64,000 nucleotides of DNA from Caldanaerobius polysaccharolyticus DSM 13641 (GTDB lineage Bacteria > Bacillota > Thermoanaerobacteria > Thermoanaerobacterales > Caldanaerobiaceae). Each line of letters starts with the position of its first letter. The stretch's first letter is position 1. The DNA is taken from assembly GCF_000427425.1 (NCBI RefSeq), contig NZ_KE386494.1:4857-68856 (forward strand), read 5' to 3'. The notes beneath the pieces are model-generated. The model was not told the origin of the DNA. It saw nothing but the letters and a program-made list of their open reading frames with translations, and ran no database searches. Below, one piece after another: positions 12,667-45,901 of this stretch. A program made the translations under genes and the position numbers.

Positions 12667-14430
12667 GGCAGTGTAAAATTTAAGTAGGTAATTTAAAAAG
12701 GAAAAAGGCACTCAAATGTAGAAAAAGACCTCACCGCAAAAAAAATAAAAATACAAAGGAGTGTGAGGTCTTATGTTAAATATTCGACACATAGTAGGTG
12801 CAGTCCTTCTTTTTTGTAACGGATTAATAAAAATAATCAGTGAAAGCAAAGATTTTTATGAACTCGAAAAAGGAGTATATGAACTTTGCCAAAAAGTTTG
12901 TAACCAGATTTTCGTATGGGCATTGGAGCAAATGGATACACGTTTGATGAATGAACGCGACCGTGAAACCTGGGAAGTAGTGGGATTCAGAAAAAAAGAT
13001 GCTATAAGCACTTTTGGCGAATTTACATATAGAAGACGCCTTTACAGAAACAAAAAGACAGGTGAGACCAGGTTTTTGCTGGATGATCTATTGGGCTGGC
13101 CAATACGGGCAAAAATAACTCCAAGGTTAAGAGAGATAGTCGTGAAACTGAGATGTCTTTCAGGCGCGTTGCCGAAACTTTAAGCCAACTATTCCCCAAT
13201 ATCAGTACAATGACGATCTGGAAGATCGTTAAGGATTTAGGAGAAACTTTAAAACAAGAAAGTGAAGAAAAGAGGACAGCAATATTTGAAAAAGGTAAAT
13301 TGCCTGAAGGGCAAAAAATTACATCAACCCTTTGTATCGAAAGCGATGGTGTAGTGATTCGACTGCAAAGAGCGGACAATAAGAGAGGAGAAATAAAACA
13401 CATTGTAGCTTATGAAGGTAAAGAAAAAATAGGTCACGAACGGAAAGTTTTAAAAAACAAAATTGTAGTGAGTGGGTTAGCGGATAGCCAGACCATGTGG
13501 GAAGAAACCTATGCAAAAGCCGGGAGCAAATGGGATTTAAATCGCGTAGAAAAAGTATACATAGGAGGAGATGGAGCCGATTGGCCAAAAGAGGGATTAG
13601 AATATTTTCCAAGAGCAGAGTATCGGCTGGACCCATATCACCTTAGCAAGCATCTAACAGAGGCCTTGTGGTATGACGAAGGAATTTTCAACAAAGTATG
13701 TGAAGCTCTTTACCAAAGCGACTTTGAGAAGACCCAAGAGACGCTAAAAGAAGAGATAAAGAAGACGAAAGGGAGTCGTAGAAAGAAGCTTGCTGCACTT
13801 TTAGATTATCTCACAGAGAATTGGGAAGGAATAGCTGCGTTAAGGGAGGAGGAACGGCTAGGAACCATCGAAGGGCAGATACAACACAACGTAGCGCGAC
13901 GGATGAAACGGTTGGGAGCCAGGTGGAGCACATCTGGTGGAGACAGGATAGCTCGGATATTAGCCGAGAGAGCCAATGGAGAGTTAGAGAAATATATTTT
14001 ACGTTGGCCAATGGAACAGAGAAAGCTCAAAGAGATGGCGCAAATAAGGTCGGATGAGAGAAAAGGAGTTGAAGACATAGAGGAATGGCTTAGCGTATCT
14101 CTGCCTGCATTAAAAGGACCCTGTGCCAGTCGACCATGGGTAAAGTATGTATTAAAAGAATTAAGCCATGTAAGTGTTGCGGCGATCATTTAAAGATAGT
14201 TTGTACTGAGATTTGAGGGGAAGAGAGGAATGTAATAGGTTGAGAGAGATACCGGTCCAAGGTATCAGAGTTTTTTGAAGAGGACGACCGGTATGAGGAG
14301 CTATTGTTGTTTGTGTGTAATCAACAAATTACCAAATATGGAATGATATTTATATTTTCAACAAAAAGGTTTATGAAAAGCGGTGAGGTAGAGTTATTAG
14401 AAAATTTACCTACAAACTCTTGACACAAAC
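12667..14430 (+). mobile_element. ISLre2-family insertion sequence, copy 1 (complete, 1,764 bp)
   Basis: The ends are fixed by a 10-bp direct duplication of AATTGATAAC on both sides. Terminal inverted repeats of 25 bp (12667-12691 and 14406-14430) share GTGT and GTAGGTAA, 16 of 25 positions by my count. It holds one UPF0236-type transposase gene, here frameshifted. The element sits inside the HD gene in the same orientation. A second copy lies at 19709-21475 in direct orientation. Confidence 0.93.
12773..14216 (+). pseudogene. ISLre2 transposase (UPF0236), copy 1, frameshifted
   Basis: The protein starts MLNIRHIVGAVLLF with ribosome site aaaggagtgtgagg. It is a UPF0236/ISLre2 transposase of roughly 475 residues when intact. 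Comparison with copy 2 shows a 7-bp deletion at 13152/13153 between two GAG triplets, which shifts the frame after KITPRLREIVVKL. It also shows a 1-bp loss near 14170 that changes the last codons. The second half reads on from SFRRVAETLSQLFPN. Conserved residues such as ESDGVVIRLQR and YIGGDGADWPKEGLEYFP lie in the middle. It cannot make a full transposase. Confidence 0.9.
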
Positions 14431-19708: not shown

Positions 19709-21475
19709 ATCACTGTAGAATTTAAGCAGGTAATTTAAAAAGGAAAAGACATTAGAATGTAGAAAAAAGACCTCACCGCATAAAAAAACCAATAACACAT
19801 AAAGGAGTGTGAGGTCTTATGTTAAATATTCGACACGTAGTGGGTGCAGTCCTTCTTTTTTATAACGGATTAATAAAAATAATCAATGAAAGCAAGGATT
19901 TTTACGAACTCGAAAAAGGAGTATATGGACTCTGCCAAAAAGTTTGTAACCAGATTTTCGTATGGGTCCTGGAACAAATGGACGCACGCTTGATGAACCA
20001 ACGCGATCTTGAAACCTGGGAAGTAATAGGGTTTAGAAAAAAAGATGCCATAAGCAGCTTTGGCGAATTTACATATAGAAGACGCCTTTACAGAAACAAA
20101 AAGACAGGTGAGACCAGGTTTTTGTTGGATGATCTATTGGGCTGGCCAATACGAGCAAAAATAACTCCAAGGTTAAGAGAGATAGCCGTGAAACTGAGTA
20201 CCGAGATATCCTTCAGGCGTGTTGCCGAAACTTTAAGCCAACTATTCCCCAATATCAGTACAGTGACAATCTGGAAAGTCGTTAAGGATTTGGGAGAAAC
20301 TTTAAAACAAGATAATGAAGAAAAGAGAGCAGCAATATTTGAAAAGGGTAAATTACCTGAAGGACAAGAAATTACATCAACCCTTTGCATCGAAAGCGAC
20401 GGCGTAGTGATTCGTCTGCAAAGAGCGGACAATAAGAGAGGAGAAATCAAACATCTGGTAGCCTATGAAAGCAAAGAAAAAATCGGTCATGAACGGCATG
20501 CCTTGGTGTGGTGAGTGGGCTAGCTGATAGCCAGGTCATGTGGGAAGAAACATACGCAAAAGTCGGGAGCAAATGGGACCTAAACCGAGTAGAAAAAGTA
20601 TACATAGGAGGAGATGGAGCCGATTGGCCAAAAGAGGGATTAGAATATTTCCCTGGAGCTGAGTACAAGCTGGACCCATATCACCTTAGCAAGCATCTAA
20701 CAGAGGCGTTATGGTATGACGAAGAAACTTTCAACAAAGTATGTGAAGCTATTTGCCTAGGCGACCTTCAAAAGACCCAAGAGACGCTAAAAGAAGAGAT
20801 AAGGAAAACTAAAGGGAATCGAAGGAAGAAAGTCACTACCCTTTTAGATTATCTTACAGAGAACTGGGAAGGAATAGCTGCGTTAAGGGAGGGGGAACGA
20901 CTAGGAGCCATCGAAGGACAGATACAGCACAATGTAGCGCGGAGGATGAAACGACTGGGAGCCAGGTGGAGTATATCCAGTGGAGACAGGATAGCTCGAA
21001 TACTGGCGGAGAAAGCCAATGGAGAGTTAGAGAAGTATATTTTGCGTTGGCCTATGGAACAGAGAAAGTTCAAAGAGATGGTGCAGACAAAGTCGGACGA
21101 GAGGGAAGAAGTTGAAGACATAGAGGAATGGCTTAGGGTATCACTACCAGCATTAAAAGGGCCCTTTGCCAGTCGACCATGGGTAAAATATGTATTAAAA
21201 GAATTAAGCCATGTTAAGCGTTGCAGCGATCATTTAAAGATAGTTTGTACAGAAATTTCAGGGTAAGAAAAGGAAGTAAGAGGTTGAGAGAGATACCGAT
21301 CCAGGGTATCAGAGCTTTTTAAAAGAGGACGATCGGTATGAGGAGCTATTGTTTTTTGTGTGTAATCAACAAATTACCAAATATGGAATGATATTTATAT
21401 TTTCAACAACAAGGCTTATGAAAAGCGGTGAGGTAAAGTTATTAGAAAATTTACCTACAAACTCTTGACACAAAC
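19709..21475 (+). mobile_element. ISLre2-family insertion sequence, copy 2
   Basis: Aligned end to end with copy 1, this element runs from about 19709 to 21475. The right end is the same (cttgacacaaac); the outermost left bases differ (atcactg against ggcagtg). The 10 bp on either side (aatctcttat and tttccttttc) do not match, so there is no target duplication. The right side cuts into an oxidase gene. A flanking deletion or recombination after insertion would explain this. Confidence 0.88.
19819..21266 (+). pseudogene. ISLre2 transposase (UPF0236), copy 2, frameshifted
   Basis: This copy keeps the residues lost in copy 1 (REIAVKLSTEISFRRVAETL) but carries its own lesion. At 20497-20510, 14 unrelated bases replace 24 bases present in copy 1 (13444-13467), a net loss of 10 that shifts the frame. 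After it the protein resumes as VSGLADSQVMWEETYAK and reaches a C-terminus VLKELSHVKRCSDHLKIVC that is longer than in copy 1. The two copies were thus inactivated independently. A functional transposase could be reconstructed from the pair on paper, but neither is active alone. Confidence 0.9.
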
Positions 21476-23792: not shown

Positions 23793-25787
23793 ATGTATAA
23801 GAAGCTTTTCGAACCTATTAAAATAGGTAAAGTTGAGCTTAAAAACCGCATTGTTATGGCGCCAATGGGAAATCTCGGCTATTCAGACACTGATGGATGT
23901 TTTAACAAAAAAGCTTTTGATTACTTCATTGAAAGAGCAAAAGGCGGGGTAGGTTTAATAATCACAGGTGTTTCAAAAGTTGAAAACGAAATAGAAAAAT
24001 TTATTCCAGGTACAGCACCAACCCCTGCAATAAACCCCGGCAGGTTTATTCAAATAGCAGGTGAGCTTACTGAAAGAGTTCATGCTTATAATACAAAAAT
24101 CTTTTTACAACTAGGAGTGGGATTTGGAAGGGTTGCAGCACCGTCACTTTTGCTTACCCACCCTATTGCACCATCGCCAGTCCCGAACTATTGGAAACCA
24201 GATATAATATGTAGGGAGCTTACGGAAAAAGAAATAGAAACGATAATCCAAAAGACAGCGGAGGCGGCGTTTATTGCAAAAGAGGCGGGATTTGATGGCG
24301 TTGAAATTCACGCTGTTCACGAAGGGTATTTGCTTGATCAGTTTGCAATTGCACTTTTCAACAAGCGCAAAGACAGATTTGGCGGTGATTTACGAGGGCG
24401 GTTGACGTTTGCAACCGAAATAGTAAGAGCAATAAAAAAACTGGTTGGACAAGACTATCCAGTGTCCGTCAGATTTAGTGTAAAGAGCTTTATAAAAGGC
24501 CTCAACCAAGGCGGGCTTGCTGATGAGGTATTTGAGGAAAAAGGAAGAGATGTTGACGAGGGGCTTAAAGCGGCAAAGATATTAGAAGAAGCGGGGTATG
24601 ATGCATTAGATGTGGACAATGGATCATATGATGCATGGTATTGGGCACATCCACCTATGTATCAAAGCAATGGTCTAAACATTCCATATGCCAAAAGGTT
24701 AAAGGAAGTTGTAAAAATTCCAATAATGCTAGCTGGAAAATTGGATGTTGTTGAATATGCCGCAAAGGTTGTAAACGATGATATAAGCGATATGGTAGCA
24801 ATAGGAAGAGGTTTGCTTACCGACCCGTATTGGCCTAAAAAAGTATTGAAAGGCGACATTGAAGACATAAGGCCGTGCATTGGCTGTCAGGTTGGTTGCA
24901 TCGGTAGGATCATTCAACCAAGACCGCTTTGTTGTGCGGTAAATCCCACTGTTGGCAGAGAAAAAGAATATGAGATAAAGCCTGCTGATATAAAAAAGCG
25001 TGTTATGGTTGTCGGCGGTGGAGTTGCGGGAATGGAAGCGGCAAGGGTGCTCGCACTACGTGGACATGATGTTGAGCTTTATGAGAAAAGCGAAAGACTT
25101 GGTGGGCATCTTATCGAAGGTTCGGTTCCGGACTTCAAAAAAGACGATGCAAGGCTTCTGAGTTGGTATAAGTATCAAATAAAAAAGCACAATATAAAGA
25201 CTTATTTAAATACCGAAGTTACAAGAGAGCTCATAGATTGCAAAAAACCGGATGCAATAATTATCGCAACAGGATCTGAACCTATAGTTCCAAATGTTAA
25301 AGGAATTGATAGCAGTAATGTTGTGCTAGCGACAGAACTTTTAGGTGGGGTAAAAGAAGTAAAAGACAGGATATTGGTTGTTGGCGGCGGGCTTGTTGGT
25401 TGTGAGCTTGCGCTATGGCTTGCAAAACAGGGCAAGAAAGTTACGCTGATAGAGATGCAAAACGATTTAATGGTAAGCGGTGCACCTGTTGCGCACGCCA
25501 ACAGAATTATGTTAATAGACCTTCTAAAGTTTTACAAGGTTGAAATCCTGGTGAATACAAAGCTTGTTGAAGTTAAGAACAATGAAGCCATAGTTGAAAC
25601 AATGGGCGAGAGAAAAGGCATATCTGCTGATACGATAGCTCTAGCAGTTGGGTATAAGTCAGACAAAAGGTTGTATGAAGCGGTTTCCAAGGATTATCCA
25701 GATGTTTATCTCATCGGTGACTCCCGGGAACCTCAAAACATAATGTATGCTATTTGGGATGCCTATGAGGTTGCACATGAGATATAA
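23793..25787 (+). CDS. Old Yellow Enzyme-type NADH:flavin oxidoreductase with Fe-S and FAD/NAD domains
   Basis: A 664-residue enzyme of the 2,4-dienoyl-CoA reductase/trimethylamine dehydrogenase type. Residues 1-~350 are the FMN TIM barrel (FEPIKIGKVELKNRIVMAPM at the start; GVEIHAVHEGYLLDQF with the active-site His). A 4Fe-4S site follows (RPCIGCQVGCIG...CC near 360-385). The C-terminal half holds two Rossmann motifs, VMVVGGGVAGMEAA and ILVVGGGLVGCEL, for FAD and NAD(P). Such enzymes reduce enoates or related alkenes with NAD(P)H. It stands alone between spacers, with ribosome site ggaagg. The physiological substrate cannot be read from sequence. Confidence 0.88.
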   Translation: MYKKLFEPIKIGKVELKNRIVMAPMGNLGYSDTDGCFNKKAFDYFIERAKGGVGLIITGVSKVENEIEKFIPGTAPTPAINPGRFIQIAGELTERVHAYNTKIFLQLGVGFGRVAAPSLLLTHPIAPSPVPNYWKPDIICRELTEKEIETIIQKTAEAAFIAKEAGFDGVEIHAVHEGYLLDQFAIALFNKRKDRFGGDLRGRLTFATEIVRAIKKLVGQDYPVSVRFSVKSFIKGLNQGGLADEVFEEKGRDVDEGLKAAKILEEAGYDALDVDNGSYDAWYWAHPPMYQSNGLNIPYAKRLKEVVKIPIMLAGKLDVVEYAAKVVNDDISDMVAIGRGLLTDPYWPKKVLKGDIEDIRPCIGCQVGCIGRIIQPRPLCCAVNPTVGREKEYEIKPADIKKRVMVVGGGVAGMEAARVLALRGHDVELYEKSERLGGHLIEGSVPDFKKDDARLLSWYKYQIKKHNIKTYLNTEVTRELIDCKKPDAIIIATGSEPIVPNVKGIDSSNVVLATELLGGVKEVKDRILVVGGGLVGCELALWLAKQGKKVTLIEMQNDLMVSGAPVAHANRIMLIDLLKFYKVEILVNTKLVEVKNNEAIVETMGERKGISADTIALAVGYKSDKRLYEAVSKDYPDVYLIGDSREPQNIMYAIWDAYEVAHEI

Positions 25788-32348: not shown

Positions 32349-32383
32349 GAATAGCTGTTGGCAGGATGTGTCAACAGCTATTC
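32349..32383 (+). terminator. strong hairpin between the Fe-alcohol dehydrogenase and Ku
   Basis: GAATAGCTGTTG and CAACAGCTATTC form a perfect 12-bp stem with an 11-nt loop. The T-run is poor (ttgagg), so termination may be partial. It separates the fermentative gene from the repair/defence block. Confidence 0.6.
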
Positions 32384-32432
32384 TTGAGGATATACGTCTT
32401 TTTACAGGGAATAATATTAATGAGGTGATTTT

Positions 32433-33254
32433 ATGCGTTCCCTGTGGAAAGGCGCTATAAGCTTTGGCCTCGTAAGCATTCCGATTAAATTGTACGCTGC
32501 AACCGAAGACCATACCACCCATTTCAGGCAGCTGCACAAGGATTGTAATTCACCTATTAAGTACGAAAAAGTATGTCCGGTTTGCAATAGGCCTGTTAAT
32601 GATGACGAGATTGTACGCGGCTATGAGTACGAACCAGGAAAATTTGTTATATTAAGTGACGAAGATCTGGAGCGGATTCCTTCAGAAACAGTTAAAACCA
32701 TTGATATACTGGACTTTACCGATATAAAACAGATTGATCCTATTTATTTTGATAAGACGTATTATATCGCGCCGGAAGACATTGGTACAAAGCCTTATGT
32801 GCTGTTAAGAGATTCTATGAAGAAAACCAATACGGTAGCGATTGCTAAAGTTACTATAAGGTCCAGACAAAATTTAGCGTGTATAAGGGTATATGATGAC
32901 AACTACATGGTAATGGAAACGATGTATTTCCCCGATGAAATACGCAAAACTGAGCAGCTTCCTCCACTACGGCAAGTGTCTCTCCATGAAAACGAAATAA
33001 AGATGTCAGAACAATTGGTAAATACACTGACAGCAAAATTCAATCCTGAAAAGTACGAAAATACCTACAGAAAGGCCCTATTTGACCTTATAGAATCAAA
33101 AATACAGGGGCATGAAGTAGAAGTACCTGAGAAAGCCCCTGCTCCAGATAACGTACTGGATTTAGTCACGGCTCTTAAAGCTAGCATTGAAGCAGCAAAA
33201 AAGGCGGACAATCCAGCGGAAAAAACAAGAGGGAGAAAGAAAAAAGGAGCATAG
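32433..33254 (+). CDS. ku: Ku protein, NHEJ DNA-end binding
   Basis: A 273-residue bacterial Ku homodimer subunit. The start MRSLWKGAISFGLVSIPIKL is the family signature and HKDCNSPIKYEKVCPVC holds the usual Cys/His residues. The ring-forming core covers ~1-245; the tail ends in a short Lys/Arg-rich stretch (KTRGRKKKGA), as in Ku proteins that recruit LigD. It binds double-strand ends and passes them to the ligase, whose start lies 4 nt after the Ku stop. Ribosome site gaggtg. The short basic tail suggests a plain recruiting role without extra DNA-binding extensions. Confidence 0.96.
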   Translation: MRSLWKGAISFGLVSIPIKLYAATEDHTTHFRQLHKDCNSPIKYEKVCPVCNRPVNDDEIVRGYEYEPGKFVILSDEDLERIPSETVKTIDILDFTDIKQIDPIYFDKTYYIAPEDIGTKPYVLLRDSMKKTNTVAIAKVTIRSRQNLACIRVYDDNYMVMETMYFPDEIRKTEQLPPLRQVSLHENEIKMSEQLVNTLTAKFNPEKYENTYRKALFDLIESKIQGHEVEVPEKAPAPDNVLDLVTALKASIEAAKKADNPAEKTRGRKKKGA

Positions 33255-33258
33255 TTTC

Positions 33259-34164
33259 ATGTCTATGATGGACCAAAAAATAGCGCCAATGCTGGCTTTC
33301 TCCGGTGAACCTTTTGATGATCCTGGTTGGATTTTTGAAATTAAATGGGATGGTTCCAGGACTATTGCTTTTATATCCGACAAAGTGAGGCTTCAGGATA
33401 GAAGGCTTGTAGATATAACATATCAATTTCCTGAAATGGATGACCTAAGGAAGTGCCTTAAAGCCAAAGAAGTTATATTGGATGGTGAACTGATTGTTTT
33501 AAAAAATAACAAACCTCACTACAGGAGTATCATGTCCAGAAAGCACACCCAAAGCGCTTTAAAAATCGATTTATTGAGCAAAACAATGCCGGCTGTTTTT
33601 GTTACGTGGGATATATTGTATTTGGATGGGAAATCCCTGGTTGATTTGTCTCTGTTAAATCGCAAAGAAATACTGTATTCTGCCGTAAAGCCAAATGATC
33701 ATTTAATAATAGCAGATTTTATATTCGAACGTGGAAAAATGCTCTATGAAGAAACAGGTAAAAAAGGATTAGAAGGAGTCATGGCTAAAAAAGCCGATTC
33801 TAAATATTATATCGGCAAAAGAAGTAGATTATGGCTGAAATTAAAGCATTTTATCACCATAAATGCCGTAATCATGGGGTATAGAACTGACAAAATCGCA
33901 CTGATACTAGGGCTGTATGATGAAAACGGCAATTTGATACCTATAGGCGATTGCGAGTCGGGGTTGTCCCAAAGGGAATTATCTGCTTTTATGCACGTAG
34001 CTGAAGATATAAAGACTTACAGCGAGAAGAACATACAATGGATAAAACCTCTTTTAGTCTGTCAAGTGAGGTTTATGGAGTGGTCGGAGAATATGAAGAT
34101 GAGGGCGCCTGCGTTTGTAGGATTTCGATACGAAGTGAAGACTGACCAGTGCAGATTTACGTAA
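33259..34164 (+). CDS. ligD: ATP-dependent DNA ligase, LigD ligase domain only
   Basis: A 301-residue ATP-dependent ligase of the LigD type. The adenylated Lys29 lies in EIKWDGSR. Other nucleotidyltransferase motifs are seen: VILDGELIV (motif III), VTWDILYLDG, GLEGVMAKK (motif IV) and WLKLKHF (motif V). The OB fold covers ~205-301. LigD often also has primase-polymerase and phosphoesterase domains; both are absent, so polymerase functions would need other genes. I use ATG 33259 after aaaggag; frames further upstream overlap Ku and are not needed. With Ku it makes a minimal end-joining pair. Confidence 0.95.
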   Translation: MSMMDQKIAPMLAFSGEPFDDPGWIFEIKWDGSRTIAFISDKVRLQDRRLVDITYQFPEMDDLRKCLKAKEVILDGELIVLKNNKPHYRSIMSRKHTQSALKIDLLSKTMPAVFVTWDILYLDGKSLVDLSLLNRKEILYSAVKPNDHLIIADFIFERGKMLYEETGKKGLEGVMAKKADSKYYIGKRSRLWLKLKHFITINAVIMGYRTDKIALILGLYDENGNLIPIGDCESGLSQRELSAFMHVAEDIKTYSEKNIQWIKPLLVCQVRFMEWSENMKMRAPAFVGFRYEVKTDQCRFT

Positions 34165-34246
34165 AAATCAACGAGTACAATTGCATATAGGGTGGCTTTA
34201 CCAAGGTTATAAAGAGAGATTTGCGAATGATAAAGGAGTATCTTAT

Positions 34247-35791
34247 ATGGGTAAATTGGATATAGGGATTTTAAAACCTTTGGATGAGGCCCGATACCTT
34301 ACTGCAGAAAACGCCTCAAGGTATCGGCTTATCATGAGGTATTTTTACGAACAGTATCAAAAGTTTAAATACTGGATGTACAAAGAGGATATTTATCAGT
34401 ATGTCGTGCAATTTGAAATGTTTAAAGACTATACTATGGAGCGATGCGAACAGGATTTAAAAACCCTTACTGAGTGGAAAAACCTTATAGCAACTCAGGA
34501 TACCAGCAAAGCTGCTACATTGGAGGAGTTTAAAAACAAGAAATTCAGGTATCAGTTGAGCCCATATTCCATTGAGATAGAGAGGATGACTATAAGGCTT
34601 GAAGATATTACGGGATATGGCGGGTCTCTGGAGCCTTCGCTTTTTGAGAGGATATATAAAAATCTCTTAAAAGTGGTGGACATGTCAAAGGAAGATGATT
34701 TGCAGGCTGTAAACAGATGGTGGGAGGATCTCAACGGGGACTTTGAAAATATATACCACAACGCTACCGATTACATCGCAAGCCTTCAAAGTTCTAGAGC
34801 CGATGAGCTCATGAGAACGGAGGCTTTTATTGTGTACAAGGATAAGCTCATTGAATACCTCAGGGATTTTATAAAGGACCTTCAGAGATTTTCCCTGGCC
34901 ATTGAAAGTTTTTTAAGAAAGGTAGATATAAATGCTGTAAATGCGGCCTTGGATAAGGTGTGTAAATATCAGAAAAGCATACCCAGGCTGGAACAGGAGC
35001 TGAGCGAGAGCAGTATCATACAAAACGTAACAGATAGGTGGAATAATATCTCCCTCTGGTTTACAGGTCGAAATGGCGAGGATAGCGAGGCATACAGGCT
35101 TTTAAATATTTCCAGTGAAATTATACGAAGGATAACCATGTATGCCTCAAGAATAGCAGAAAATCGCATGCGCATGATAAGCCGTAAAAACGAATACTTG
35201 AAACTCTCCCGTATTTTCGCTAATATGGAGGATGTTAAAGAAGCCCATAAACTGTCGGCAGGTGTCTTTGGAGTCTTTAATACAAGGCATATTTGGGGCG
35301 ACCTGGAGCGAAAAACGGATAGCGTAAATTCCAGTGTATGGCAGGAGCCACCTTTTACTGTAATCGTAAAACCTAAGACTAGAAATTATCATTATTTTTC
35401 TAAAACAAACGGTATTATTGACAGAAGCCAAAGCAAAGCTCAAGCCCAGCTGGAGTACCTTAAGAGCAAAAAATACGAAATGGAGATAATCTCTAATTAC
35501 ATATCGGGAAACAGGATATGCTTTAAAAAACTACCTGTAATACAGCCTTTTGTGCGGACCACTTTGCTCCAGTGGATAAGTAGGGCTATGGGCAGTACCC
35601 GACTTACGGGCAAGACTGAAGACGGCAGGATATACAAGGTGATTTTCCCTGAAAACGGCGAAAGAACTATTCTAAGGTGCACCGATGGAAATCTGGATAT
35701 GCCTGCTATAGAAATAGAATTTGAAGATAAGGGTGATGACGTTGGAAGAACTGGAAATCCTGCTGGAAAACTTCTGGGTTACCAGAAGTGA
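34247..35791 (+). CDS. jetA: Wadjet JetA (TIGR02677/DUF2397 kleisin-like subunit)
   Basis: A 514-residue protein, ribosome site aaaggag, 82 nt after LigD. The start LDEARYLTAENASRYRLIMR is typical of TIGR02677 (DUF2397), the JetA of one Wadjet subtype. The protein is mostly helical, with a winged-helix-like head (YEQYQKFKYWMYKEDIYQYV) and long coils at ~150-380, as expected for a kleisin that bridges the SMC heads. The start of jetB overlaps its last 56 nt, so translation is coupled. It works with JetB and JetC as a DNA-loop-extruding SMC complex. Confidence 0.9.
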   Translation: MGKLDIGILKPLDEARYLTAENASRYRLIMRYFYEQYQKFKYWMYKEDIYQYVVQFEMFKDYTMERCEQDLKTLTEWKNLIATQDTSKAATLEEFKNKKFRYQLSPYSIEIERMTIRLEDITGYGGSLEPSLFERIYKNLLKVVDMSKEDDLQAVNRWWEDLNGDFENIYHNATDYIASLQSSRADELMRTEAFIVYKDKLIEYLRDFIKDLQRFSLAIESFLRKVDINAVNAALDKVCKYQKSIPRLEQELSESSIIQNVTDRWNNISLWFTGRNGEDSEAYRLLNISSEIIRRITMYASRIAENRMRMISRKNEYLKLSRIFANMEDVKEAHKLSAGVFGVFNTRHIWGDLERKTDSVNSSVWQEPPFTVIVKPKTRNYHYFSKTNGIIDRSQSKAQAQLEYLKSKKYEMEIISNYISGNRICFKKLPVIQPFVRTTLLQWISRAMGSTRLTGKTEDGRIYKVIFPENGERTILRCTDGNLDMPAIEIEFEDKGDDVGRTGNPAGKLLGYQK

Positions 35792-36869
35792 CAGAGAGAC
35801 CTTTAACAGGATAAGAGATAAGGAACCTGTTTTAAGGCCGTTTGTAGAAGAAAAGCTAGGCTACAAGCTTATTATCAATCCTTATGTGATAAAACTGGAA
35901 AAAGTGCCTGGTGAGGCTGAAGAATGGATGGGTATACAAGATTTTCAATCTCTTATGGATTACAGTTTCTTTTGCCTTTTATTAGCATTTTTGGAAGATA
36001 AAGCGCCGGAAGATCAGTTCGTCCTGTCTAATATTACGGAATACATTGAGGTACAGTACAATGGGCCGGGAAAAGTAGATTGGACGCTATTTCAACACAG
36101 GAAATCACTGGTGAGGGTTCTTAACTTCGCCGTGAAAGTGAACTTGATACTGGTGAACGATGGTAATCAAGAGCGTTTTTCTGAAAATAGGGATATAGAG
36201 GTTTTATATGAAAACACCGGTTTATCCAGGTATTTCATGAGGGTACTGGATAAAGAAATTGATGAAAACGTGAATATTGAAGGGCTTTTAGAGGAGAAGA
36301 GGGAAAATGCCAGGAGGCACAGGGCATATCGCAAACTTCTTCTTTCACCAGCCGTATACAGCGGCGGCCCTGATGACGATACATTTAATTATATAAAAAA
36401 TTATCGCAACACTATTGAAAAAGATTTTGAGGAGTTCTTGGATGCTCGCTTACATGTTTATAAAAGTTCGGCCTTTCTTATATACAAAGATAATAAATAT
36501 ACCAAGGCCTATTTCCCCGATAAAAACAGCAATATTTCTGACATTATATTACAAATATGTTTCATTATAAGGGAAAAAATCGAAAAAGAACAGCTTAAGC
36601 TGACCAATGACGATAAGATTGTTATCACAGAGGCTGAGTTTTATAATATTATTGAAAACTGCAAGAAGCGATTCAGCCACGGCTGGTACAAATCGTACAG
36701 GGAAAAAAGTATCCAGTTGCTTATAAATGAAATAATGGATGAGATGAGATGGTGGAAGATGATCGCATACGATGAGAAACTTCATTCCGTCACCATTTTA
36801 CCCATGGCTGCAAGGTTTATAGGCAAATATCCAGCAGATTTTGATAAAGGAGAATATGCCGATGAGTGA
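35736..36869 (+). CDS. jetB: Wadjet JetB (TIGR02678/DUF2398 KITE-like subunit)
   Basis: A 377-residue protein starting at ATG 35736 (GTG 35733 is an alternative). The pattern FWVTRSDRETFNRIRDKEPVL, then GYKLIINPYVIKLEK matches TIGR02678 (DUF2398), which supplies the winged-helix KITE-like subunit of the complex. The middle is helical and hydrophobic (FFCLLLAFLEDKAP). Its stop lies in ATGAGTGA, overlapping the start of jetC by 8 nt, so the complex is made in linked amounts. Confidence 0.9.
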   Translation: MTLEELEILLENFWVTRSDRETFNRIRDKEPVLRPFVEEKLGYKLIINPYVIKLEKVPGEAEEWMGIQDFQSLMDYSFFCLLLAFLEDKAPEDQFVLSNITEYIEVQYNGPGKVDWTLFQHRKSLVRVLNFAVKVNLILVNDGNQERFSENRDIEVLYENTGLSRYFMRVLDKEIDENVNIEGLLEEKRENARRHRAYRKLLLSPAVYSGGPDDDTFNYIKNYRNTIEKDFEEFLDARLHVYKSSAFLIYKDNKYTKAYFPDKNSNISDIILQICFIIREKIEKEQLKLTNDDKIVITEAEFYNIIENCKKRFSHGWYKSYREKSIQLLINEIMDEMRWWKMIAYDEKLHSVTILPMAARFIGKYPADFDKGEYADE

Positions 36870-39800
36870 TAGGTGGATTGTAAATAGGATAGGCCTTATA
36901 AATTTCTGGTATTACGATGATGAAGTATTCGAGTTCGCGGGGGGTAGGTTGCTTTTAAGAGGTTCCAATGGTTCAGGTAAGTCTGTTACCATGCAGAGCT
37001 TTATACCCCTTATTCTGGATGCTAACAAAAGCCCTGAGAGACTGGATCCTTTTGGCTCTAGGGCAAGGAAACTGGAGGATTATCTTTTAGGCGAGGAAGA
37101 TATAAACGGCATTGACGAAAGAACAGGTTATCTTTATATGGAGCTTAAAAGGGAGTACTCAGATAATTACATAACTTTTGGCATTGGACTTAAAGCTCAC
37201 AGACATCAGAGCATGGATTTTTGGGGATTTATAGTATTGGATGGTAGAAGGATAGGTAAAGATCTTTTTCTGTACAAGTTGGAGGTCGGAGAAGAGGGAA
37301 ATAGAGTAAAGGTGCCTTTGACTAAAAAAGAGTTAAAAAATGCCATAGGTGATGGGGGTAAGGTGCTTGAAAGCCAGAGGGAGTACATGGAGACAATAAA
37401 TAAGTACGTCTTTGGCTTTGAAACCATCGATGATTATGATGAACTTATAAAGCTCTTGATACAGATAAGGAGTCCTAAACTCTCCAAAGATTTTAGGCCT
37501 ACGGTGATATACGATATCTTGAAAGCATCTCTACCTTCTCTATCCGATGACGATTTGAGGCCGCTATCGGAGACCATAGAAAATATGGACCAGATAAAAA
37601 TGCGCTTGGACGAGCTCCATAAGGATATGGCTGCGATGAAAAAACTAAAGGACGAATACGATAACTACAATAAATTCATCTTGTACGACAAAGCTAAAGA
37701 ATTGTTAAAAGCCCATAATGAGCTTTTATTGGCTCAAAAGGATTATGATAAGCTGTCAAAAGATATCGACGAATATAAAGCTAGAATAGATGATATCGGT
37801 GAAAAAATATTGTCGATGGAAAGAGAGATGAGTGCCCTCAAGGAGAAGGAAAGGCAGCTTAGGAATAATGACGTTTTTAAAACCCAGCAAGAATTGATAG
37901 AAGAGCAAAATCGTTATGACCAGTATAATAGAGAAAAGTCATCAAAAGAAGAAAATCTCAAGCAAAAACAGTCAAAGTACATGGATGTAAAAAAGAAGAT
38001 AGACAGAACCCGGGATGAAATGTATTGTGCCGATAAAGAAGTCCAGGATATTCTCGACCTTATGTCTTTTATGGCTGAAGAAATTGACTTTCTAGAACAC
38101 CGGATCTCTCAGGATGAACTGAAAAAAAACTACGGAAGGGAATTTGATTTTAATTTCTGGAGGTCGCAGTTTAAAAAACATAAAGAAAAGATCAAAAAGG
38201 CCCTTGATGCATTAAAGGAAGAACAGGATGCCAGTAAAAAATACGACGAGAGTCTAAGGGAAGAGGAAAGACTTAGAAAGCAGAAAGATGAGAGAGAGCG
38301 GGAAGTAGAAAGGTGCGAGAGACTTTTTGATGAAGAAAAAAGTAAGTTTGTAGAAAAAGTGTACGGCTGGTCACAAGAAAATTCGGAGCTTAAACTTTCC
38401 CGTGATCAACTAGAAGACATAGGCCGACAGGTGTTGGCGTACGGCGAAAAGGCGGGATTTGATGGCGTTATGGTTTGTGTGCGCAGGGCATACGATGAAT
38501 GCAGAAGCGCTTTGCATAGAGAAAAACTGGTTCTGGAAAATTTCCGCAATTTAAAGCAAGAAGAATTAAATACCCTGGAACAGGAGCTAAAAAGCTGGAA
38601 AGACAAACAGGATCCAGAGCCCGAAAGAGATCCTCAGGTTCAGAACAACCGAAAAAGGCTGACGGATGCCAAAATTCCTTTTGTGCCTTTATACAGATGT
38701 ATTGAATTTAAAGAGGACGTAGACGAAGAAACCAGGGGGAATATTGAAGCGGCTATGGAAGACATGGGCCTGCTGGATGCGCTAATCATTCCATCTCGAT
38801 ATATGGCCGATGCTATGAAGATGGATAAAGAAATGGCTGACAGGTACATTGTCCCAGGAGCTTTTAGTATGCAGCTTAATGTATTTCAATACTTTGATGT
38901 AGTAGATCCTGGTGAAGGCGTTTCAACAGAGGACATATCTGATGCTTTGAGCAATATACTTGTATACCAGTCGGAAAATTCTACTTATATTAATCAGGAC
39001 GGAAGTTACGGCATAGGGATTATAAGAGGCAAATCCAGAGGTAACGTCAGGTCAAAGTATATTGGATATGGGGCAAGAAAGCGCTTCAGGGAAGAGATGA
39101 TAAATAGCCTCAAACAAAAGATTGAGATAGTAAACGCTGAGATTAAATCCTACAATGAGTCTATCAAATCTATAGATTACAGAATAGAGCGTTTAGACCA
39201 GGAGTATTCGCGTTTTCCAGCAAAAGATGATCTGGACGTAGCATATGACTACCTTAAAACTGCCCTGGCCGAATTAAAATTTATAGAACAGAAGCTAAAC
39301 CAGCAATCGATAGAGGTGAAGAAACTATTTGAGGATTTACAGCAAAAAAGAACAGTGGTCAGGGAAACTACCAGTGGCATAGAAATACATCGCGATGTAG
39401 AAAGCTTTGAGCTTGCTTACAACAGGTCTGAAGAATATGATGCAGAGTTGGTAAAATTAGAAATAAATTACAATAGATATTTATCTTATGCCGCAAGCCT
39501 GGAAGTTCTGGAACAGCAAAAAGGCGAGCTAGAATACGATATTGACAACCTGAAATACGAGATCGATGTTCTGTCAACGCGGTCTCGAAGCTCCGAAAAG
39601 AAAATGCAAGCGTTAATGGAAGCTATTGACAAGCTAGGGTTAAAGGAAATTGAGCAGGAATTGAATTCGTGCCTCAGAAGATTAGAAGAGATACCTGAGG
39701 AGATAAAAAGTCTTTCGATAAATATAGCAAAACTGGAGGAGAGATCGGAATCCAATCGGAGAGAGCTCCAGCGGTTAAGCGAGGATATTACGGTAAAGCA

Positions 39801-41007
39801 AATGGTATACCAAATTGTAGAAAAGGGATTTAAAGATGAGTTAAACCTGGGATTTGTTTATCAGGAGGACAGTGATGATGTGTTAAAATTAGGTAAAAAG
39901 ATTGTATTAGAGTATAAGGCTCTTTTTGATAAGCCGGGTATTGATAAGGAGAAGATGACGTCGAGGTTGCAAAACGCCTTTTACGAAAGCCTCAATGAGC
40001 TGGTGGATTACGGTTTGTCCATGGGTTATATCTTTGATGAAGAGAAACATGATGGCAGTGGATCAGAGATATATGATGTGATAAAGCAAAAGCTCAGGAG
40101 ATATCAAATAACGGCCAGTTTAAGCGGTAAAACAGTATCTCTGTATGTATTGTATCAGAGCATACAGGACGATATAAATGTTAACGAAAACCTGTTAAAA
40201 GAAACCGACAGACACCTTTTTGAGGAGATTATCATGCATAATGTAGGAAGGAAAATCAGAGGTAAGATCTTTAAAGCAGAGGAATGGGTTAAAAAGATGA
40301 ATAAGCTTATGTCAGAGCGGGATACCTCCAGTGGACTCAGGTTTTACCTTGAATGGAGACCGATAGCTGCTGATAACGAACAGGAAATGGACACAAGGGA
40401 ATTGGTGGATGTTTTGAAGTCTGATGTGGACATGCTCAAACCTGATGTTTTTAATAAGGTAGTAAATCACTTCAGATCCAAGGTAGAGGCTGCCAGGCGA
40501 ATACAGGAAGGAGGTAGTGCCGAAACCTTCCATAAAATAATAAAAGAGGTGCTGGATTATAGGGATTGGTTTGAATTTGTGTTGTATTACAGAAAAGAAG
40601 GAGAAAGCCGAAAAGTCTTGACAAACAACGCCTTTGATAGGCTGAGCGGTGGAGAGAAAGCTATGGCCATGTACATTCCACTATTTTCCGCTGTATATTC
40701 TCGGTATGAATCGGCGTCAAAAAATGCTCTTAAGATTATATCCCTTGATGAAGCTTTTGCTGGTGTCGACGATAACAATATAAGGGATATGTTTAAATTA
40801 ATAGAGGATCTGGGATTTAACTTCATTATAAATTCTCAAGTACTATGGGGTGATTACGACACCGTTCCAGAGCTGTCTATATGCGAGCTGGTAAGACCGA
40901 AAAATGCGAATTATGTCACAGTCATAAGGTACAGGTGGGATGGCAATGTGAGACATCTTATCACTGACGCTGAAGGAGAAGCGGCGATAGGGTGGGTTGG
41001 TGCCTGA
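36862..41007 (+). CDS. jetC: Wadjet JetC (TIGR02680 SMC-like ATPase)
   Basis: A 1,381-residue SMC-type ATPase. Walker A is GSNGSGKS at residues 34-41, after a start (WIVNRIGLINFWYYDDEVFE) typical of TIGR02680. Long coiled coils flank a hinge near 600-730. The signature LSGGEKAMAMYIP is near 1260 and Walker B IISLDEAFAGVDD near 1292, so the ATPase site is complete. I chose ATG 36862 since aaggag is 9 nt ahead; ATG 36856 is too close. In Wadjet it extrudes DNA loops and measures plasmid size for JetD. No frameshift is seen over more than 4 kb, so selection has kept it. Confidence 0.94.
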   Translation: MSDRWIVNRIGLINFWYYDDEVFEFAGGRLLLRGSNGSGKSVTMQSFIPLILDANKSPERLDPFGSRARKLEDYLLGEEDINGIDERTGYLYMELKREYSDNYITFGIGLKAHRHQSMDFWGFIVLDGRRIGKDLFLYKLEVGEEGNRVKVPLTKKELKNAIGDGGKVLESQREYMETINKYVFGFETIDDYDELIKLLIQIRSPKLSKDFRPTVIYDILKASLPSLSDDDLRPLSETIENMDQIKMRLDELHKDMAAMKKLKDEYDNYNKFILYDKAKELLKAHNELLLAQKDYDKLSKDIDEYKARIDDIGEKILSMEREMSALKEKERQLRNNDVFKTQQELIEEQNRYDQYNREKSSKEENLKQKQSKYMDVKKKIDRTRDEMYCADKEVQDILDLMSFMAEEIDFLEHRISQDELKKNYGREFDFNFWRSQFKKHKEKIKKALDALKEEQDASKKYDESLREEERLRKQKDEREREVERCERLFDEEKSKFVEKVYGWSQENSELKLSRDQLEDIGRQVLAYGEKAGFDGVMVCVRRAYDECRSALHREKLVLENFRNLKQEELNTLEQELKSWKDKQDPEPERDPQVQNNRKRLTDAKIPFVPLYRCIEFKEDVDEETRGNIEAAMEDMGLLDALIIPSRYMADAMKMDKEMADRYIVPGAFSMQLNVFQYFDVVDPGEGVSTEDISDALSNILVYQSENSTYINQDGSYGIGIIRGKSRGNVRSKYIGYGARKRFREEMINSLKQKIEIVNAEIKSYNESIKSIDYRIERLDQEYSRFPAKDDLDVAYDYLKTALAELKFIEQKLNQQSIEVKKLFEDLQQKRTVVRETTSGIEIHRDVESFELAYNRSEEYDAELVKLEINYNRYLSYAASLEVLEQQKGELEYDIDNLKYEIDVLSTRSRSSEKKMQALMEAIDKLGLKEIEQELNSCLRRLEEIPEEIKSLSINIAKLEERSESNRRELQRLSEDITVKQMVYQIVEKGFKDELNLGFVYQEDSDDVLKLGKKIVLEYKALFDKPGIDKEKMTSRLQNAFYESLNELVDYGLSMGYIFDEEKHDGSGSEIYDVIKQKLRRYQITASLSGKTVSLYVLYQSIQDDINVNENLLKETDRHLFEEIIMHNVGRKIRGKIFKAEEWVKKMNKLMSERDTSSGLRFYLEWRPIAADNEQEMDTRELVDVLKSDVDMLKPDVFNKVVNHFRSKVEAARRIQEGGSAETFHKIIKEVLDYRDWFEFVLYYRKEGESRKVLTNNAFDRLSGGEKAMAMYIPLFSAVYSRYESASKNALKIISLDEAFAGVDDNNIRDMFKLIEDLGFNFIINSQVLWGDYDTVPELSICELVRPKNANYVTVIRYRWDGNVRHLITDAEGEAAIGWVGA

Positions 41008-41008
41008 A

Positions 41009-42292
41009 ATGACTGAAGAGGATCTGGCGTTTTTTAAGTCCCGCAGGGGTTACTATAGGATTTTTAAAGGTATAAGGGACAAATATAAAAGCCTTGGAAG
41101 AATTGGAGGAATTGTTAAGCTTGTAAACCTGACCGATGATGAAAGAGAGGTGCTGTCAAATCATTTTAAAAGAGATTACAGCAGGAGCAAATCGGCATCT
41201 ATCGATGTAAGTGCTTTTGAACAATCATTAAAGCATACCCGTTTTGAGGGTTACTCATTGCTGGAAATTCTGGAAGCGTATTTTGGAGAGAAGATAACGA
41301 GTAAAAAGGAAGATTTAGATAACTACCAAACCGAAAAGGAAAAATTCTTCAAGGAACTCTACTTGACTTTTGAAGGCCGCGAAAGCGCAAAATGGATTCA
41401 ATCTATATGCGAAGGTAAAGCCGTAGGCGTGCGAGCCATAAATAGGAGATACGATAGAGATAAAGATGCCCTTAAAAAGGATATAGCATTGGTGTGCAAT
41501 GCCATTGATAGCCTGCCCGTATATAGTGGGGAGAAGATGAGGTTTTCTGTTTTTGCCTCCCGTATAACCAGGAATCCCCACGGCTTTGATATAGGCACTG
41601 AATGTGGCAATATGTTTAAATGGGCCTTGTGTACTGTTATGGGTACCGGTGAGGTAAAGGGGCCAGAGGAAATAGCGGAGCTGTATTACAGGGCAGGTAT
41701 ATTGATAGATGAAGTGTCTAATTACGTGACCCTTTCAGGCCTTATTGCCTACAAAAAAGGTGTACCTGATGCGGTTTTTGAAGCAGCCTATCATAGCAGC
41801 CAGGTACTTCAAGTACCTCTTTTGCAGCTCAGCAAGATCGACGATGTAAGAAGCCCTGTAAACAAGGTTTATGTAGTGGAAAATCCAGAAGTATTTGCTG
41901 AGCTTTTAGATACATGCCAGAAACGTGAAAATCGTATTCCACCTCTTGTATGTACTTTTGGCCAACCAAAACTTTCTTCGCTTGTATTGCTGGATATGCT
42001 GTACAAAAACAAGACGAAGATATACTACTCGGGCGATTTTGACCCTGAGGGATTGTCTATCGCCGATAGGCTTTATAAAAGGTATCAAGGATATCTTTAC
42101 CTTTGGAGGTATAGCGTCGACGATTATGAAAAAGCTTTATCTGATGAGATGATAAACGCAAAGAGGTTAAGCCTTTTGAAGGGCATTAAAGCAGAAGAAC
42201 TCAAAATTGTAGCAAAAAAAATGGCTATAATCAAAAAAGCCGGATATCAGGAATTGCTAATTCAAGAATTGATTTCCGATCTCCTTGAGTAA
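41009..42292 (+). CDS. jetD: Wadjet JetD (TIGR02679/DUF2399 Toprim-like nuclease)
   Basis: A 427-residue protein, ATG one base after the jetC stop; GTG 41000 is an alternative. The C-terminal DUF2399 region is Toprim-like: Glu in VYVVENPEVFAEL near 290 and the DxD in IYYSGDFDPEGLSI near 340 can bind metal. JetD is the endonuclease that cuts plasmid DNA once JetABC has finished extruding it. The N-terminal half (~1-200) looks like the TIGR02679 helical arm domain. All catalytic acids expected of the family are present, so the system looks functional. Confidence 0.92.
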   Translation: MTEEDLAFFKSRRGYYRIFKGIRDKYKSLGRIGGIVKLVNLTDDEREVLSNHFKRDYSRSKSASIDVSAFEQSLKHTRFEGYSLLEILEAYFGEKITSKKEDLDNYQTEKEKFFKELYLTFEGRESAKWIQSICEGKAVGVRAINRRYDRDKDALKKDIALVCNAIDSLPVYSGEKMRFSVFASRITRNPHGFDIGTECGNMFKWALCTVMGTGEVKGPEEIAELYYRAGILIDEVSNYVTLSGLIAYKKGVPDAVFEAAYHSSQVLQVPLLQLSKIDDVRSPVNKVYVVENPEVFAELLDTCQKRENRIPPLVCTFGQPKLSSLVLLDMLYKNKTKIYYSGDFDPEGLSIADRLYKRYQGYLYLWRYSVDDYEKALSDEMINAKRLSLLKGIKAEELKIVAKKMAIIKKAGYQELLIQELISDLLE

Positions 42293-42350
42293 AAAGTATA
42301 ACATTTTTTACCCCGCTTAAAATATAATTGTGATAGAAAGGCGGGATAAT

Positions 42351-43409
42351 TTGAATAAAAAAGGTCTTTCTGTGTTTTCTATAGCGGCAACCTATATAGG
42401 GACGGTGGTGGGAGCAGGGTTTGCTTCAGGGCAGGAAGTTCTTCAGTTTTTTGGCTACCACGGGACAAAAGGTTTTATAGGTTTATCTGTTGCTACCTTT
42501 ATGTTTATAGTTTATGGCTATATCGTTATGGCCTTGGGCCATAGTCTCAACGCCACCTCTCATCAAAAGGTGATAATGAAAGCAGGAGGGCCTGTACTTG
42601 GGAAAATCGTAGATTATATCGTAATATTCTTTTTATTTGGTGCCCTGACGGCTATGATCGCTGGTTCCGGAGCTATATTTAAAGAACAATTTGGACTTTC
42701 TGTTACCATAGGATCCACAACTATGACAATCTTGTCTGTTATCACTGTTCTGATGGGAATTGCGGGGGTTATTTCTGCTATATCCTTTGTGGTACCTCTC
42801 TTGTTAATAGGGGTGTTTGCGGTAAGCTCCCTGGCTATCTTTTGTGCACCCAGTATCTCTGTATTGTCCCGTGGATATATGCCTGTAAAAGCTGCAGTGT
42901 CTAACTTTTTTTTATCGGGAGTCATATACGCATCGTACAATTTGGTCATGTCGGTGCCCATACTGGCGCCGTTGGGGCAACAGGTGCGTATTAAAGAGAG
43001 ATTAAAGTGGGGAGCATTATATGGGGGTATAGGTCTGGGCGCGGGTGCATCCCTTATACTCGTCGCCTTGCTTTTAAATATGCCTTATGCGTCCCGATTT
43101 CAAATACCGATGATATACATTGCCGGAAGGTTTTCTAATGTGTTAAAGTTGGCGTATAGCTTTATACTCATAGCCGAAATATACACCACTGCTGTAAGCA
43201 ATCTTTATGGCTTTGCTGCTAGACTAAGTGCTGCACAAAGTCGCTGGTATAAAGCTGTCACTATTGTGACAGGTATTGCAGCTTTTATAGCCAGCAGATT
43301 TGGTTTCTCTAACTTGGTGCATTACTTGTATCCTCTTGCAGGATATGCGGGTATTGTAATGCTGGCGGGTCTTACATACGGGATTTTACGAGGTAGAAAA
43401 ATACTATAA
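42351..43409 (+). CDS. YkvI-family membrane transporter
   Basis: A 352-residue integral membrane protein with about ten hydrophobic helices. The start FSIAATYIGTVVGAGFASGQ is the hallmark of the YkvI family, a branch of the amino acid/polyamine transporter superfamily; the GAGFASGQE turn breaks helix 1 as in LeuT-like folds. I start it at TTG 42351, which follows aaaggcggg. A TATAAT at 42323-42328 gives a likely promoter within the gap, so it is separate from Wadjet. Substrate is unknown. Confidence 0.8.
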   Translation: MNKKGLSVFSIAATYIGTVVGAGFASGQEVLQFFGYHGTKGFIGLSVATFMFIVYGYIVMALGHSLNATSHQKVIMKAGGPVLGKIVDYIVIFFLFGALTAMIAGSGAIFKEQFGLSVTIGSTTMTILSVITVLMGIAGVISAISFVVPLLLIGVFAVSSLAIFCAPSISVLSRGYMPVKAAVSNFFLSGVIYASYNLVMSVPILAPLGQQVRIKERLKWGALYGGIGLGAGASLILVALLLNMPYASRFQIPMIYIAGRFSNVLKLAYSFILIAEIYTTAVSNLYGFAARLSAAQSRWYKAVTIVTGIAAFIASRFGFSNLVHYLYPLAGYAGIVMLAGLTYGILRGRKIL

Positions 43410-43482
43410 TGGCCTCCAATATGCTGTCAAATATGCTATAATAATATGGAAGACGTTAAAAAAATAAACGGAGGCAGGAATA

Positions 43483-44835
43483 ATGAGTGGATTAAAACTG
43501 GATTACAGTAAGGTCATGCCTTACGTAGAAGAACGAGAAATAAGTTACATGTCTGAAATGGTCAAGACCGCCCATAGGATGGTACATAACAGGTCGGGGG
43601 CGGGGTCGGATTTTCTCGGTTGGGTTGACCTACCTAAAAACTACGACAAAGCCGAATTTGAAAGAATCAAGAAAGCTGCAAGGAAGATCGCTTCTGATTC
43701 TGACGTTTTTATCGTCATAGGCATTGGAGGTTCATACTTAGGGGCAAGAGCTGCCATAGAGATGTTATCTCATTCTTTTTACAATCAGTTGCCTTCAGAC
43801 AGGCGTAAAACACCTTTAATTTATTTTGCCGGAAACAGCATAAGTTCCACGTATATTTCTGATCTAATAGATGTAGTAAAGGACAGAGATATTTCTATAA
43901 ACGTGATATCCAAATCGGGTACGACCACCGAACCAGCTATAGCGTTCAGGGTATTTCGAGATTTGTTAGAAAAAAAATACGGTAAGAAAGGCGCTAAGGA
44001 GCGCATATATGTTACAACGGACAGAGAAAAAGGCCTTTTGAAGAAATTAGCTGACGAAGAAGGCTATGAAACCTTTGTAATACCCGACGATGTGGGAGGA
44101 AGATACTCAGTATTGACGGCAGTAGGGCTTTTACCCATAGCTGTAGCTGGCATAGATGTGGATGAGATGATGAAAGGAGCTTATGATGCTCTGGTTAAAT
44201 ATTCCTGCGAGGATTTATCTTCCAATGATAGCTACGTGTACGCGGCTATAAGGAACATATTGTACCGCAAGGGAAAGACGATTGAAATAATGGTCAATTA
44301 CGAGCCTAGATTACATTATTTTTCCGAATGGTGGAAACAGTTATTTGGCGAAAGCGAAGGGAAAGACCACAAGTCTATTTACCCTGCATCGGTGGACTTT
44401 ACCACAGACCTTCATTCTATGGGCCAGTACATACAGGAAGGTATGAGGCAAATTTTTGAGACGGTCATAAACGTGGAAAAGCCTTTAAGAGACATAACTA
44501 TCTTGGAAGATCCTGATAATATAGATGGCCTAAATTTCCTGGCGGGTAAAACGATAGACTATGTGAACAAGAGTGCTTTTATGGGAACCCTCATAGCCCA
44601 TAATGATGGAGGAGTTCCTAATGTGGTCTTAAATGTCCCGGAAATCTCCCCTTACTACTTTGGACAGATGGTTTATTTCTTTGAAAAAGCCTGTTCCATA
44701 AGCGGATATTTAATGGGAGTAAATCCTTTTGATCAGCCAGGGGTAGAAGCGTATAAGAAAAATATGTTTGCCCTTCTGGGCAAGCCTGGTTATGAGAGCG
44801 AAAGAGAGAAACTGTTAAAGAAAATAGACCAATGA
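43483..44835 (+). CDS. pgi: glucose-6-phosphate isomerase
   Basis: A 450-residue phosphoglucose isomerase, which links glucose-6-P and fructose-6-P in glycolysis. [20 protein letters not shown] is the phosphate-binding start, [15 protein letters not shown] the SIS-type loop, and [13 protein letters not shown] the C-terminal PGI signature. Length is typical of the short Firmicute form. Ribosome site cggaggc. The next gene, manA, begins 13 nt after its stop, so the hexose-phosphate isomerases are one operon. Confidence 0.97.
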
Positions 44836-44848
44836 AAGGAGAATGCAA

Positions 44849-45901
44849 TTGCTGTATCCACTCAGGTTTTTTCCCATATACGTGGAAAGGGTATGGGGAG
44901 GAGATAATTTAAAAAGGCTGTTTGGAAGGGAATTTCAAGGTAACAGAATAGGGGAAAGCTGGGAAGTAGCGTGCCACCCCCATGGTACCAGTGTAGTTTG
45001 CAATGGCCCTCTTAAAGGAAAGAGCCTTAAAGACATAATAGATACGTACGGCAGGAGGCTACTGGGCGATAAGCTAACGCAGCGTGATATAGACAGGTTC
45101 CCTCTGCTTGTAAAGCTCCTGGATGCTAACGATGTATTGTCGGTACAGGTTCATCCTGATGACAGTTACGCCATGAAAAACGAAAATGGCGAATTGGGCA
45201 AGTGTGAGATGTGGTACGTTATATCGGCAAAACCTGGCTCTAAGATAGTTTACGGCCTGAAAAAAGGTGTGACTAAAGATATATTTAAAGATGCTCTTGA
45301 AAAGGGTACGTTGGAAAATTGTCTTAATTTTGTAGAGGTCTCTCCTGGAGACGTCTTTGACGTACCGGCAGGAATGGTACATGCATTAGGTGCCGGAGTT
45401 GTAGTGGCAGAGATACAGCAGAATTCTGATACTGTGTATAGGGTTTACGATTGGAACAGGGTTGGCCTTGATGGTAAGCCAAGAGAACTGCACATTAATA
45501 AGGCATTAGACGTTATAGATTTTGACGGAAAGTATAAAGCGGAGAAAACCAAGGGGTTGGCAGTGGGGAATAAGGTGTATTTCGTAGCAAATAGGTATTT
45601 TGCCGTAGAACTCATAAAAATAAATGGGCGTTACGATGACAGGGCTGACGGCAGCAAGTTTGCTATTTACACAGTAGTATCAGGAAGTGGAAAAATAGTT
45701 TACGATGGCGGAGAGTTAGAACTTAAATCGGGAGATTCGGTGCTGATACCGGCTTGTTTAGGCAAATACAGTATCGCTGGTACCTCTGTAGATGTGTTAA
45801 AATCCTATGTACCTGACTTAAATGAGGAAATTGTGAACCCCCTTAAATTTGCAGGATACGATGACGATCAAATTCGCAGTGTCGTTAAAATTTTATCATA
45901 G
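44849..45901 (+). CDS. manA: mannose-6-phosphate isomerase, class I
   Basis: A 350-residue zinc cupin enzyme that interconverts mannose-6-P and fructose-6-P. Metal ligands are seen in SVQVHPDDSYA (Gln and His), GKCEMWYVI (Glu) and PAGMVHALGAGVVVAEIQQ (His); the active-site Arg is in DTVYRVYDW. I prefer TTG 44849, 8 nt after aaaggag, over ATG 44843, which would touch the ribosome site. It sits in an operon with pgi and ends at a terminator. It may feed mannan or mannose use or GDP-mannose synthesis. Confidence 0.95.
   Translation: MLYPLRFFPIYVERVWGGDNLKRLFGREFQGNRIGESWEVACHPHGTSVVCNGPLKGKSLKDIIDTYGRRLLGDKLTQRDIDRFPLLVKLLDANDVLSVQVHPDDSYAMKNENGELGKCEMWYVISAKPGSKIVYGLKKGVTKDIFKDALEKGTLENCLNFVEVSPGDVFDVPAGMVHALGAGVVVAEIQQNSDTVYRVYDWNRVGLDGKPRELHINKALDVIDFDGKYKAEKTKGLAVGNKVYFVANRYFAVELIKINGRYDDRADGSKFAIYTVVSGSGKIVYDGGELELKSGDSVLIPACLGKYSIAGTSVDVLKSYVPDLNEEIVNPLKFAGYDDDQIRSVVKILS

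Follow-up and report, generated by a model that had tools for sequence, protein, structure and literature searches.

A ku-ligD pair beside a type II Wadjet operon in Caldanaerobius polysaccharolyticus: very probably two independent systems juxtaposed in one lineage

Wadjet extrudes small DNA circles, which JetD cuts, while Ku binds DNA ends and LigD seals them. A locus that encodes all of these proteins in a row raises the question of whether plasmid cutting and non-homologous end joining (NHEJ) belong to one machine. Such a locus was found in the 64,000-nucleotide stretch analysed here (the window), where six genes lie head to tail on the + strand at 32433-42292. The first-pass annotation offered three readings: protection of the host from stray JetD cuts, a shared anti-plasmid module, and chance co-location. 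The data favoured the last of these. The locus very probably consists of two ordinary, independent systems that were juxtaposed in one lineage and do not form a joint machine. An accidental juxtaposition is the most likely explanation because the pairing is absent in related genomes and its two halves differ in recent history. In the literature, PMC10586767 names both Wadjet and NHEJ, but the latter for Rad50 in eukaryotes, and PMC11680222 covers Wadjet and mentions LigD in a separate island, as a gene related to integration.

Gene content of the two systems

Family profiles bore out the initial naming of the genes as ku, a ligase-only ligD and a complete jetABCD (Table 1). The sequence likewise confirmed the 4-nt gap between the ku stop and the ligD ATG, the 82-nt gap between the ligD stop and the jetA ATG, and the overlaps of jetA with jetB, jetB with jetC and jetC with jetD.

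Table 1 Features of the ku-ligD-jetABCD locus, in window coordinates
Feature	Position	Strand	Description
Conserved ku leader, likely promoter region	32377..32432	+	~50 nt nearly identical to the congener G014; start of the ku-ligD block
ku	32433..33254	+	273 aa; TIGR02772 324.5 bits (cut-off 150); PF02735 197 bits
Ligase-only LigD-type ATP-dependent DNA ligase (ligD)	33259..34164	+	301 aa; PF01068, PF04679; TIGR02779 224.8 bits; KWDG motif
Junction of the ku-ligD and jet blocks	34168..34234	+	67 nt matching neither G014 locus (BLASTN block ends)
jetA (type II Wadjet)	34247..35791	+	PDLC00540 688 bits; TIGR02677 369 bits
jetB (type II Wadjet)	35721..36869	+	PDLC00542 463 bits; TIGR02678 213 bits
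jetC, SMC-like ATPase (type II Wadjet)	36856..41007	+	PDLC00551 1640 bits; TIGR02680 895 bits
jetD, Toprim-type nuclease (type II Wadjet)	40997..42292	+	PDLC00556 513 bits; TIGR02679 240 bits
Transporter-like ORF, pgi, manA	42330..45901	+	right-hand neighbours of jetABCD, same order in G014:C10

A Ku core domain and an NHEJ-type ATP-dependent ligase are encoded side by side, the combination by which NHEJ was recognised. The TIGR02779 score of the ligase lies about 3 bits below the curated cut-off of 227.75, and both Pfam ligase domains exceeded theirs. The profile search found neither a Pol nor a PE domain in the ligase, so that it differs from a three-domain LigD, and no match to the LigD-type Pol domain (TIGR02778) was detected anywhere in the genome, which holds a single copy of Ku. 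The pair is the usual minimal two-gene form of bacterial NHEJ, consisting of Ku and a LigD ligase without Pol and PE, and its neighbourhoods vary between genomes. Relatives in the class that carry Ku show the same order of ku and a ligase-only ligD, and the window pair differs from theirs in genomic location only. Repeated gain, loss and horizontal transfer have been reported for NHEJ in bacteria (PMC7719229). A candidate forespore (SigF/SigG-like) promoter ahead of ku was also considered and rejected, as a loose match in the congener was not common to most other relatives.

The four Jet proteins scored best with the PADLOC profiles JetA2, JetB2, JetC2 and JetD2, and all were above the cut-offs of TIGR02677, TIGR02678, TIGR02680 and TIGR02679, respectively. 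JetC carries the motifs GSNGSGKS, LSGGEK and LDEAFAGVD, which vary little or not at all across an alignment of 11 members, and the acidic motif GDFDPEG of JetD is intact. With four jet genes in one operon and both the ATPase and the Toprim-type motifs in place, jetABCD is, as judged from sequence, a type II Wadjet operon that appears complete and is of a kind widespread in the class; its expected activity is extrusion and cleavage of closed-circular plasmids. JetA2 is present once in the source genome. The subunits, their usual order and the ATPase and nuclease motifs are the same as in type II Wadjet (JetA2B2C2D2); nothing intrinsic to the window system differs, and its upstream neighbour alone is unusual. 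The Wadjet system of Clostridium cellulovorans (PMC12287153) is likewise a native clostridial jetABCD, for which restriction of conjugative plasmid transfer was shown. Unlike in the window neighbourhood, NHEJ genes are not mentioned as part of that system in the passages considered. The two halves of the locus are to be regarded as a new member of type II Wadjet and a new member of minimal NHEJ, and no system is claimed for the two together.

Comparison with the congener

The family is represented by two genomes, the source genome (G000) and its sole congener (G014). In the congener, the order jetABCD-transporter-pgi-manA was kept on contig C10, and collinearity between this contig and the window begins at 34235 and extends nearly to the window's right end. 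BLASTN identity was 75% over jetA-jetC, 72% onward to pgi and 73-76% beyond. Synteny broke to the left of jetA, where the congener encodes a peptidase of family M20 and a glycoside hydrolase of family 4, neither of which matched in the window. The ku-ligD pair of the congener is located on a separate contig (C5), flanked by pyruvate:ferredoxin oxidoreductase (PFOR) and GH130 genes. By BLASTN, the homologous block in the window (32377-34167), which starts 56 nt ahead of ku and ends 3 nt past ligD, was 90% identical to this locus, and the two Ku proteins were 95% identical.

Identity at fourfold-degenerate sites showed the same contrast, with 79% for ku and 72% for ligD against 46%, 36%, 38% and 41% for jetA, jetB, jetC and jetD, respectively, and 25%, 39% and 36% for the transporter gene, pgi and manA. 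Protein conservation alone does not raise the fourfold value, as the pgi products were 89% identical and yet their gene stayed in the low group. The DNA identity of ku-ligD compared with the 73-76% of the jet side, together with the fourfold contrast, therefore indicates a ku-ligD cassette with its own recent history, and the common ancestor of the pair appears to be younger than that of its neighbours. The shared evolutionary history that a joint system calls for was not observed, given the identity contrast and the separate loci in the congener.

In the simplest account, jetABCD would have stayed in front of transporter-pgi-manA, where it is also found in the congener, and the block of ~1.8 kb carrying ku-ligD would have come to sit 5' of jetA through a recent transfer or translocation. 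At the breakpoint where it settled, the former upstream sequence of jetA would have been lost or exchanged. We infer the move itself from the comparison, and its direction is not certain, since two family genomes alone leave G000, G014 or both as the recipient.

Other features were noted towards the left end of the window. Transposase-like ORFs or pieces of them were recognised by eye at 2316-3056, 8285-8779, 13153-14193 and 19819-21266, and these may explain the rearranged neighbourhood. An old-yellow-enzyme-like oxidoreductase gene at 23793-25787, in the non-collinear left half, showed 90% DNA identity to G014:C33, far above that of the collinear regions, and is another candidate for recent transfer.

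Recurrence of the pairing

A lack of enrichment of ku or ligD beside Wadjet II in other genomes had been set at the outset, along with separate transcripts, as the result that would speak against a link, and no enrichment was found in the surveyed genomes. The survey covered a single phylum and a set of plasmid records. Within the class, JetA2 was detected in 31/37 genomes and Ku in 20/37, and the two were adjacent in the source genome only. Across the phylum, an evenly drawn sample of 348 genomes contained JetA2 in 58 cases and Ku in 201 (the Ku positions of nine genomes coming from a repeat search); 36 of the sampled genomes from outside the class held both, in no case side by side. A profile search of up to 10 kb on the flanks of Wadjet II loci in other genomes recovered Ku or LigD in 0/127 cases. 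Of these, 47 were JetA loci from the surveyed genomes and 80 were JetC loci from named genomes; some shared contigs, and some had flanks cut short at contig ends, as in L075 and L093, where nothing was visible upstream of jetA. The same Ku and LigD profiles recovered 6/6 Ku loci used as positive controls. A JetC relative was present in 17 plasmid records, and the two regions of these that were inspected had no Ku nearby; the viral contigs searched did not encode any JetC relative. The recurrent adjacency expected of a joint NHEJ-Wadjet system was thus not observed, as the surveyed genomes contained no second case.

Where both systems were present in closed genomes (15 genomes), they were 223-1388 kb apart, a distribution that fits uniform placement (KS p=0.27). 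Roughly 0.04 adjacencies would be expected by chance among about 54 genomes with both systems and about 3000 genes each, an inferred figure which is not a test, since the window was chosen because the pairing was present. Outside the class, Ku was more frequent in JetA2-bearing genomes of the phylum sample (36/46, 78%) than in the others (160/289, 55%), a difference (Fisher p=0.0035) that takes no account of phylogeny or genome size and has no bearing on adjacency. This excess is a weak sign of co-occurrence. A single rearrangement can yield a tempting joint defence-repair module, and one congener comparison together with a neighbour survey is enough to tell such a module from chance.

Transcription and alternative readings

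Independent systems may still share a transcript. Co-transcription is plausible, as all six genes point the same way, the gaps are short, and a consensus scan of the + strand found nothing terminator-like between ligD and jetA. A weak scan of the same interval also found no sigma-70-like site on the + strand, and an AAAGGAG site precedes the jetA ATG. Read-through from ku-ligD into jetA is therefore a plausible suggestion of these scans. One possibility, which we hold tentatively and which is compatible with an accidental juxtaposition, is that the promoter of jetA was replaced, so that jetABCD is read from the ku-ligD promoter; the proteins would not work jointly, and Wadjet would follow the regulation of NHEJ. 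In favour of this, the congener has a candidate extended -10 element, TGTGTTATAAT, upstream of jetA, and this element has no counterpart in the window because homology to the upstream region of the congener starts at 34235, at the ribosome-binding site. No TATAAT was present within 260 nt upstream of the window jetA. However, the promoter scan is weak: TATAAA is present, and the missing TATAAT says little, as an exact match was found in only 38/117 jetA loci. A stronger proposal, that ku-ligD was captured at the promoter of jetA so as to form a genuine operon of six genes, and that co-production of Wadjet and NHEJ is useful, for example against JetD cuts in the chromosome, is very improbable. 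If true, Wadjet would be made together with NHEJ in the source lineage, and the coupling would be useful to the cell.

The two functional readings of the first-pass annotation fared poorly, since within the survey the pairing was unique to the source genome and the recent history of ku-ligD differs from that of jetABCD. That Ku-LigD repairs stray JetD cuts in the chromosome, coupled to them through the operon, is very improbable. It draws on the adjacency in the window and on the modest co-occurrence of Ku and JetA2 in the phylum sample, but one genus of the class has eleven genomes with JetA2 and none with Ku, and the phylum sample adds ten from outside the class that carry JetA2 and lack Ku. 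Because such genomes exist, Wadjet II can generally do without host protection by NHEJ, though such protection is possible. Current models, as given in PMC12287153, moreover place cleavage after a circle has been fully extruded and describe it as rare on chromosomes. It is scarcely credible that Ku and LigD act jointly on the plasmid ends made by JetD. Only adjacency and gene order speak for this, whereas rejoining of the ends would undo the defence, and the Ku, LigD and Jet proteins are family-typical in length, with full-length matches and no extra docking domain seen. An accidental juxtaposition thus remains the preferred reading.

Some other Wadjet loci showed features of their own. A plasmid of Alicyclobacillus dauci (L189, 9204-21543) carries a type II Wadjet operon and, after it, a toxin gene of the PemK/MazF family and a cas12b annotated in two pieces. 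One genome (G026) retains Ku and holds a jetA remnant of 37 positions, with a stop, at C1:1762339. The closed genome G019 carries two equal-scoring copies of JetA2, located 43 kb apart at C1:1600429 and 1643423.
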